A stretch of DNA of 64,000 bases from Methanocaldococcus lauensis. Its GTDB lineage: Archaea > AGJL01 > Methanococci > Methanococcales > Methanocaldococcaceae. The stretch spans positions 1,011,030 to 1,075,029 of the forward strand of contig NZ_LR792632.1 of the NCBI RefSeq assembly GCF_902827225.1, in the 5' to 3' direction. Numbering within the stretch: position 1 is the first letter of the stretch; each line of letters starts with the position of its first letter. Made by a program: the position numbers and the translations under genes. Positions 39,020 to 61,471 of the stretch are shown one piece after another. Under the pieces are notes generated by a model that worked only from the letters and a program-made list of their open reading frames with translations, was not told the DNA's origin and did not search any database.

Positions 39020-40423
39020 ATGGATATTGATAAAAATTTACTTGAAAAATGGGATAAGGAGTATATTTGGCATCCATATACACAAATGAAAGAATATAGG
39101 GAATCAAAAAACTTAATTATAGAGAGAGGGGAAGGGAATTATTTAATTGATATTTATGGAAATAAATATTTAGATGCTGTTTCATCTATATGGTGCAATC
39201 TATTTGGACATAGTAGAAGAGAAATTATTGAAGCAATAAAAAATCAGGCTGAAAAGATTTGCCACTCAACACTCTTAGGTTGTGGAAACGTCCCTTCTAT
39301 TTTATTGGCAAAAAAATTAATAGACATTACTCCAAAGCATTTAATAAAGGTGTTTTATTCTGAGGATGGGGCAGAGGCTGTTGAGATTGCAGTTAAAATG
39401 GCATATCAATATTATGTTTTAAGAGGAGATAAAGGAAGAACTAAATTCATTTCAGTTAAAGAGGGTTATCATGGAGACACTTTTGGAGCAATGAGTGTTG
39501 GAGGAAGCGAATTATTCCATGGAGTATTTAAACCTCTTTTGTTTAAAGGCTATCATGCAAATCCTCCATACTGTTATAGATGCAAATACTATAACTTTAA
39601 AGATACTGATGAGAGAAATGAAAAAGGCTGTAATATGGAATGTTTAAATGAAATGCTTGAGTTAATTGAAAAGCATGCTGATGAAGTATTTTGTGTTATA
39701 CTTGAAGGAGGAGTTATGGGCTCTGCTGGAATGATACCATTTCCAGATGGATATATTGAGGAAGTAGCAAAGGCGTGTAAGGAGAATGATATAATCTTTA
39801 TTCTTGATGAAGTAGCAACTGGATTTGGAAGAACTGGAAAGATGTTCTTTTGTGATAATGAGAAATTAAAAAAATTAGAAAAGCCAGATATTCTCTGCTT
39901 AGGTAAAGGAATAACTGGAGGTTATCTACCTTTAGCTGCAACTCTAACAACTGATGAAATATACAATCAATTCTTAGGAGAGTTTGGAGAGAGCAAACAA
40001 CTATATCATGGACACACATATACTGGAAATCAACTTCTATGCTCTGCTGCTTTAGCAACATTGGAAATTTTTGAAAAAGAGAATGTAATAGAAAATATCC
40101 AACCAAAAATAAAGCTTTTCCACGAAGAGCTTAGAAAATTAAAAGAACTTGAACATGTTGGAGATATTAGAGGAAAAGGCTTTATGGTTGGTATAGAGCT
40201 TGTAAAAAACAAAGAAACAAAAGAGCCATATCCTTATGGTTATAAAGCTGGCTATAGAGTTGCTGAAAAATTGCTTGAAAAAGGTATCTATATGAGACCT
40301 ATAGGTAATGTTATTATCTTATGTCCTCCTCTATCAATTACTGAAGAAGAGATTAAATATTTATGCAACGCTTTATACGAGGCAATAAAAGAGGCAGATT
40401 TAAACAGTTTCTCATTTCCATAA
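39020..40423 (+). CDS. bioA: Adenosylmethionine-8-amino-7-oxononanoate aminotransferase
   Basis: 467 aa class III aminotransferase that makes 7,8-diaminononanoate. WHPYTQMKEY near the N-terminus is typical of BioA. FILDEVATGFGRTG carries the pyridine-ring Asp, and LGKGITGGYLPLAA holds the PLP lysine. A cysteine-bearing insert (PPYCYRCKYYNF, EKGCNMEC) is usual in this branch. The start ATG at 39020 follows AGGTGAATAAA, which overlaps the bioD stop, showing coupling. No biotin synthase gene (bioB) is in the window. Confidence 0.95.
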   Translation: MDIDKNLLEKWDKEYIWHPYTQMKEYRESKNLIIERGEGNYLIDIYGNKYLDAVSSIWCNLFGHSRREIIEAIKNQAEKICHSTLLGCGNVPSILLAKKLIDITPKHLIKVFYSEDGAEAVEIAVKMAYQYYVLRGDKGRTKFISVKEGYHGDTFGAMSVGGSELFHGVFKPLLFKGYHANPPYCYRCKYYNFKDTDERNEKGCNMECLNEMLELIEKHADEVFCVILEGGVMGSAGMIPFPDGYIEEVAKACKENDIIFILDEVATGFGRTGKMFFCDNEKLKKLEKPDILCLGKGITGGYLPLAATLTTDEIYNQFLGEFGESKQLYHGHTYTGNQLLCSAALATLEIFEKENVIENIQPKIKLFHEELRKLKELEHVGDIRGKGFMVGIELVKNKETKEPYPYGYKAGYRVAEKLLEKGIYMRPIGNVIILCPPLSITEEEIKYLCNALYEAIKEADLNSFSFP

Positions 40424-40439
40424 GCATATCATAGAGTAT

Positions 40440-40600
40440 GAAAATAAGAGTCTGTCCAATATGGACAAATATAGACAAATACCCATATTTAGACTTGGGC
40501 ATCATCAACCTCGTCTCTTATAGGTTCGGTCTCTGCCCCTGTCGAGGTTTTAGTTTTCCTCCCATCAATTGTTAGAGGGTTCGAAACAGTTTCTTAATTT
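40440..40600. ncRNA. Structured GC-rich segment, possible second RNA (strand undetermined)
   Basis: Contains the hairpins TGTCCA/TGGACA (40453-40458, 40462-40467) and AACCTCG/CGAGGTT (40507-40513, 40543-40549), and AGTCT/AGACT around the first. The TATA element at 40613-40626 reads as TATA on the minus strand too, so a leftward transcript from about 40590 is conceivable. It could also be a structured bioA 3' end. Confidence 0.35.
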
Positions 40601-40612
40601 CTGTAACACACC

Positions 40613-40626
40613 ACAATATATAAATA
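40613..40626 (+). promoter_or_regulatory. TATA box of the 40.65-kb RNA candidate
   Basis: ACAATATATAAATA lies about 25-30 bp upstream of the first helix of the RNA candidate; the spacing fits an archaeal promoter. The element is nearly symmetrical and could serve both strands. Confidence 0.55.
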
Positions 40627-40644
40627 CTTAATGTAGATATTACC

Positions 40645-40812
40645 AATTAACCGATGAGATGGCTCTGCCTTCGGGTCGATATACCTTTGATAAAAAGGTT
40701 TATGGGGCTGTTTCCGTTCAGCCCGAAGTCCAATGAACTCACAGGGGAGAGATTGGTATTTCCGATGAAGCTATGAGTTAATGACAACCCATTTCCATAG
40801 ATATCGGTTTGT
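40645..40812 (+). ncRNA. Candidate structured noncoding RNA, about 165 nt
   Basis: The ends pair: AACCGAT (40649-40655) with ATCGGTT (40803-40809). Inside are CTTCGGG/CCCGAAG (40669-40675, 40722-40728), ACCTTT/AAAGGT with a 5-nt loop (40683-40699), GGGCTG/CAGCCC (40705-40710, 40719-40724, sharing three C with the CTTCGGG helix), CCAAT/ATTGG (40730-40734, 40752-40756) and CTATG/CATAG (40771-40775, 40796-40800). No ORF, no tRNA, SRP or RNase P signature that I recognise, and no paired C and D boxes. Downstream DNA returns to AT-rich sequence. Identity unknown. Confidence 0.6.
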
Positions 40813-40879
40813 ATAATATGTGTTGTATAAATGCTATTATATGTTATAGTAATGGAAAACAGAATCATTATCTCTTACC

Positions 40880-41368
40880 TTACTCTAAATATTTTTTTGA
40901 TAGTATTTTTAAAAATATTGGCAATATATAATAGACTACTACAAAACCAGCAATAAATCCAGTTATAAATCTCAATTCGTTAAAACTTTCTCTCAATCCA
41001 ATTAATTGTGTAGTTCCATCAATTACCATAGGAATTAGAGATATAATTAAATATTTTTTATGTGGGAGTTTAAAGTCATTTAGTTTTTTTACAAAGGGAT
41101 AAATTATCATTCCTGCTAAAAATCCAGTATAAATACCAAAACATCTTGCACATACTGCCATCTTATAACCAAAAATAAAATAGCTTCTTTGTGGTAGTTG
41201 ATGACATATTGGAGAATATATAGTATATAAATATATAGATATTAATCTAAAAATCTTAGAATTTTCTCCTAAGTATGCAGTATATGGTGCTAAAAAGATT
41301 CCTATATAAAAGATTATAAAAGAAAAAGTAATTAGTGCATAAATATTTTTTATTAATTTCCATTTCAT
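40880..41368 (-). CDS. DUF2085 membrane protein
   Basis: 162 aa with four or five membrane helices. The family motif is clear: SPICHQLPQRSYFIFGYKMAVCARCFGIYTGFLAG, with conserved Cys and His residues that could hold a metal. Function of the family is unknown. It is separated by 7 bp from the upstream DUF5518-like gene on the same strand. Confidence 0.82.
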   Translation of the reverse strand: MKWKLIKNIYALITFSFIIFYIGIFLAPYTAYLGENSKIFRLISIYLYTIYSPICHQLPQRSYFIFGYKMAVCARCFGIYTGFLAGMIIYPFVKKLNDFKLPHKKYLIISLIPMVIDGTTQLIGLRESFNELRFITGFIAGFVVVYYILPIFLKILSKKYLE

Positions 41369-61402: not shown

Positions 61403-61471
61403 TTGGCGATGATGACAATTTCGCTATCTGATTTTTCAATATAATGATGACTACTCCCGCAGCTGAGCCAA
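61403..61471 (+). ncRNA. C/D box sRNA (2'-O-methylation guide)
   Basis: All four boxes are perfect: C ATGATGA (61409-61415), D' CTGA (61428-61431), C' ATGATGA (61444-61450), D CTGA (61463-61466). TTGGC (61403-61407) pairs with GCCAA (61467-61471) as terminal stem. Both guides are 12 nt. The D' guide CAATTTCGCTAT is complementary to TAGCGAAATT, a near-universal 23S rRNA domain IV sequence; the fifth-nucleotide rule puts the methyl group on the C of that sequence. The D guide CTACTCCCGCAG has no target I can name. A T6 run follows at 61475. Confidence 0.88.

Follow-up and report, generated by a model that had tools for sequence, protein, structure and literature searches.

Ktedonobacter is reported to contain standalone omega RNAs of IscB, and omega RNAs, the guides of IS607 TnpB proteins and miniatures derived from tnpB transposons are all kinds of element that are already known. 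Published IS607 elements target (G)GG, possess no terminal inverted repeats and create no target duplication (PMC6188088), and the TnpB of one such element, ISXfa1, requires a pseudoknot in its reRNA (PMC10711439). The locus considered here lies in a window of 64,000 nucleotides (the whole stretch of DNA that was analysed) from the archaeon Methanocaldococcus lauensis, where a first-pass annotation had placed, at positions 40645-40812, a structured RNA of no recognized family with its own promoter. We consider it very probable (about 0.92) that positions 40578-40862 on the + strand constitute a non-autonomous IS607-type element of Methanocaldococcus and its relatives, in which the left end (LE) and its TATA promoter have become joined to the omega RNA (reRNA) of a TnpB and to the right end (RE), because the locus exhibits homology to the 3' end of tnpB, relatives with the layout LE-tnpA-tnpB-RE exist, and the empty sites found are of (N)GG type and lack a target duplication. 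Hence, the RNA of the first-pass annotation is indeed structured, preceded by a promoter-like TATA box, supported by covariation and without a match in Rfam, but it corresponds to the omega RNA, with the right end, of a transposon miniature devoid of tnpB, and its promoter is that of the transposon's left end.

The element is ∼285 bp long, from the GG core of its left end to the decayed core of its right end, and these boundaries are defined by sharp ends common to many copies, beyond which the flanks are unrelated. The left end of the family reads GGGTTYG.AACAGTTTC... and the right end ...CTATGGAAATGGGAAACGG. In the window copy the left end, GGTTCGAAACAGTTTCTTAATTTCTGTAACACACCACAA (40578-40616), is shared with the tnpB-bearing copies L084, L110, L106 and L111 and with the tnpA-bearing copy L108. 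It is followed by the TATA box TATATAAATA (40617-40626), which had rightly been noted about 25 nt ahead of 40645, the position near which transcription would be expected to start; most solo copies still have this box, as do the autonomous copies L084 and L108, and it is gone from own7, own8 and own11, three copies of the window's own genome. The omega RNA scaffold (40650-40862) is recognized by the covariation of seven helices and by its homology to the 3' end of tnpB together with the right end. As had been observed, the segment is GC-rich in AT-rich DNA (45-50% GC in 100-base windows versus about 20-35% around it), and GC content thus did pick out a structured RNA. Directly to the left lies a second, different GC-rich repeat (40450-40564; about 40448-40575), with a near copy elsewhere in the own genome (G000:C1:613709) and relatives in the genomes G005, G001 and G015; in G008 (L101) its left part is found upstream of a different tnpB-like gene, and it seems to be a piece of a miniature from another tnpB transposon family.

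A search of the own genome with the segment yielded 18 matches at no fewer than 15 loci on both strands, mostly 70-91% identical, and copies were found in 6 of the 40 relatives searched, five from the same genus and one from a different family within the order. The number of copies differs between genomes, and many of the 40 relatives carry none. One copy in the own genome (L037; G000:C1:663214-663465) has apparently landed next to, or inside, a fragment of a second copy. Three of the four loci of the family in G008 (C1 near 268899, 1228094 and 1433745; L081, L082 and L083) are near-identical miniatures of ∼340 bp, one with a truncated left end.

The parentage of the repeat is apparent from several copies in which the DNA left of the RNA, together with an extra internal stretch, reads as the zinc-ribbon end of TnpB. 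In G001, two elements of 1483-1484 bp carry tnpB between the same left end with TATA box and the same RNA with right end, and their 422-residue protein scores above the cut-offs of NCBIfam guided_TnpB and Pfam Cas12f1-like_TNB. In G001, G005, G009 and G015 tnpB is present as open frames of 423-442 codons, and in each of the four, one copy matches all three RuvC motifs. As for the transposase, L108 shows, behind the same left end, an in-frame IS607-type TnpA that extends to the contig end and is 45% identical to a protein of the serine-recombinase TnpA family NF033518, while L106 exhibits the order tnpA remnant, tnpB, RNA and right end. The layout of intact relatives is LE-tnpA(IS607)-tnpB-RE, and the own genome contains a resolvase fragment fused to fragments of the family's tnpB. 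The scaffold thus extends over the 3' end of tnpB and the right end of the transposon, where a reRNA is located.

Searches with joined flanks located, in other species, uninterrupted sites of three related copies, that is, G001e and G001a, where the flanks are three nucleotides apart, in agreement with N-GG, and own6, where the gap is three to four nucleotides, with slippage. These empty sites, along with the end sequences, show neither target-site duplication nor terminal inverted repeats, and the family possesses the GG ends and (G)GG target of IS607 elements, the right core of the window copy having decayed to AG. The same searches in relatives found no empty site for the window copy itself, because a different repeat occupies its left flank and gene order differs. 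Synteny breaks at the element (40862-41368), with the downstream gene conserved in G005 (L127) and G009 (L145); in G005 this gene has as its neighbour an ORF for a membrane protein, starting ATGATGATGCAT, which had no match in the own genome in a search run without a positive control.

The structure of the RNA was assessed on 27 homologous copies, with shuffles and slid helices as controls. Seven helices, coordinates of which are given for the window copy, are paired in 91% of cells, and 17 of their pairs show compensatory changes (57 such cells); these values were reached by 0 of 500 shuffles, and the slid controls pair in only 31-46% of cells. The scaffold starts with a 5' domain (40650-40676) formed by H0 (40650-40652 with 40674-40676) and H1 (40658-40663 with 40667-40672), the bases of which code for ..ADERALPSR.. 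in tnpB copies. It continues with H2 (GGGCTG/CAGCCC, 40705-40724) and a region (40728-40785) made up of H3 (40728-40731 with 40782-40785), H4 (40736-40745 with 40770-40779) and H5 (40749-40754 with 40758-40763), each of these three with compensatory changes, and closes with the 3' hairpin H6 (40788-40856; 40788-40801 with 40843-40856), which is weakened to 10 of 14 pairs in the window copy. The loop of H2 contains CCGUU, complementary to the terminal AACGG of the family; both strands are almost invariant, so that a pseudoknot between CCGUU and the right-end terminus (40858-40862) is a proposal only.

Folding energies agree with a structured RNA, modestly better than shuffles for the window copy (z -2.2 for 40648-40810 and -2.4 for 40645-40862) and with z -5.7 for the well-kept miniature G001a. 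The alignment for compensatory changes that the first-pass annotation had called for supports the seven helices, among them its helix GGGCTG/CAGCCC (90% of cells paired over the 27 homologues), whereas most of the fold proposed there fails on the homologues. Its closing helix AACCGAT/ATCGGTT, of which the ATCGGTT strand is missing from several copies, and its helix CTTCGGG/CCCGAAG together show one pair changed on both sides, and 496 of 500 shuffles pair as well or better. Since neither helix has covariation support, the suggested switch between two folds falls as well. The boundaries 40645-40812 proved too short, in that the 3' hairpin and the right end at 40862 lie partly outside them. The impression that no known RNA family is matched was confirmed by Rfam, which returned nothing relevant at gathering or permissive thresholds: no tRNA, SRP, RNase P, snoRNA, RAGATH-18 or Hgc model scored above its gathering threshold. 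A mir-254 match at 40401-40456 on the - strand derives from a miRNA model, is far under the cut-off and lies outside the segment. Elsewhere in the window (61405-61468), the C/D box sRNA sR39, an ordinary guide RNA, exceeds its Rfam gathering score.

TATA box, structure and compensatory changes would equally be expected of an independent cellular ncRNA gene kept for a host function. However, since the segment is a repeat, such a gene is refuted as its origin: the copies are dispersed and bear transposon ends, homology to tnpB and empty sites, they differ in number between genomes, and they are absent from many relatives, so that we regard this reading as highly improbable. The element is instead a miniature of MITE/PATE type, that is, too short to encode a transposase, derived from a known transposon by internal deletion and present in dispersed copies. 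The ancestor we envisage is an LE-tnpA-tnpB-RE element from which internal deletion removed tnpA and nearly all of tnpB, thereby joining the left end and TATA promoter to the omega RNA scaffold and right end. A serine transposase of IS607 may have moved the product in trans, by GG/GG exchange. The RNA would begin near 40645 and extend past the right end into host DNA, and, by analogy with the ISDra2 reRNA (PMC8612924), we infer that the first host bases 3' of the right end (40863-40879) would act as its guide. Loaded into a TnpB supplied in trans, such an RNA could have the emptied site cut and the copy thereby retained.

Most copies in the own genome lack tnpB; what they retain is both ends together with the 5' hairpin and the 3' domain of the RNA. 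Their internal junctions differ, G008b-d included, and in a tree of the 3' domain, several nodes of which are weak, the solo copies of G001 and G015 lie near tnpB-bearing copies and apart from the solo copies of the own genome and G005. Junctions and tree placement therefore suggest, without proving it, that miniatures arose more than once. G001a-c, which are 95-98% alike and share the same deletion at three sites, most likely moved after the loss of tnpB. It is tempting to speculate that miniatures repeatedly shrank to promoter, omega RNA and ends, as the guide of each copy would let the TnpB of other copies cut its empty site and so keep the copy. We hold this possible, at somewhat less than an even chance; if true, these transposons turn an RNA-guided nuclease to their own use with nothing but its guide on board. 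That only the ends matter to TnpA, the miniatures being passive MITEs with an RNA structure inherited from tnpB-bearing parents, comes close to an even bet. Transcription is indeed unnecessary for spread, since several copies have no TATA box, and some solo copies that share the deletion removing it at different loci may have transposed without being transcribed; the window copy, moreover, is decayed. Against passivity, solo copies pair as well as the others (90.8% versus 91.7%) and display double changes of their own (32 double-change cells among miniatures alone, 0 of 1000 shuffles, although shuffles do not control for shared descent). It is also of interest that miniatures with different internal deletions all retained the omega RNA along with the other parts.

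The window copy itself, which preserves 39 of 49 pairs, is most likely an inactive relic, as judged from its sequence and that of its genome: no intact cognate tnpB and only a fragment of tnpA are found there, and its right-end core (AG instead of GG), its 3' hairpin and the strand of its predicted pseudoknot (AACAG versus AACGG in the family, mismatched to CCGUU) have decayed. The best cognate tnpB copy of the own genome lacks residues 160-286 and a single resolvase fragment is left of TnpA; because the assembly is 98.7% complete, the absence of intact cognate TnpB and TnpA is probable rather than certain. The own genome does contain three further TnpB-like genes, their open frames measuring 414-449 codons (G000:C1:1413308, 1266436 and 738430), and a solo omega RNA might have been exapted with one of these proteins as a TldR-like gene regulator. 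Yet only one of the three was detected with the cognate TnpB as query, being 29% identical over part of its length, none of the RNA's own-genome copies adjoins any of the three genes, and the guide of the window copy has no other exact site in the own genome and one site with two mismatches elsewhere in it, equal to the control count. We therefore consider exaptation extremely improbable.

The assignment settles the nature of a class of GC-rich structured loci in AT-rich methanogens, the four of G008 among them, which composition screens would otherwise keep reporting as orphan ncRNAs. It also provides a covariation-supported scaffold for the guide RNA of an archaeal IS607 TnpB, with open tnpB frames available in four related genomes, and a natural comparison between genomes with and without TnpB for asking if gene-less elements keep their guide RNA because TnpB acts in trans. 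The archaeal family appears not to have been described so far: a literature search found neither solo omega RNAs nor IS607 miniatures in Methanocaldococcus, and no prior account of this family or of IS607 miniatures that retain a promoter-driven omega RNA.

Among described systems, the reRNA of the ISXfa1 TnpB (PMC10711439) likewise is a right-end guide RNA that runs into the flank, with stem-loops and GG exchange sites, and it contains a pseudoknot that for the present family is predicted only; its sequence is, as far as tested, unrelated, and the present family differs in its miniatures without tnpB. The RAGATH-18-derived reRNAs (PMC11061315) also guide IS607 TnpBs from beside the right end, but the RNA described here matches no Rfam family and its 5' domain overlaps tnpB coding sequence, whereas the RAGATH-18-derived RNAs are independent of that sequence. 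The ISDra2 reRNA (PMC8612924) resembles it in spanning the tnpB 3' end, with coding overlap, and the right end, and in taking its guide from flanking DNA, yet ISDra2 belongs to IS200/IS605 and is moved by a Y1 transposase, in contrast to the serine transposase of IS607. Finally, the PATEs of Haloquadratum (PMC3119063) are likewise transposase-free archaeal elements that arose by core deletion of tnpB transposons and lack terminal inverted repeats and target duplication. They derive from IS605-type transposons, however, are defined by palindromes at their ends and in one case measure only 52 bp, so that the present IS607-derived elements fall outside the original definition of a PATE, and it is these elements that retain an omega RNA of ∼210 nt together with its promoter.
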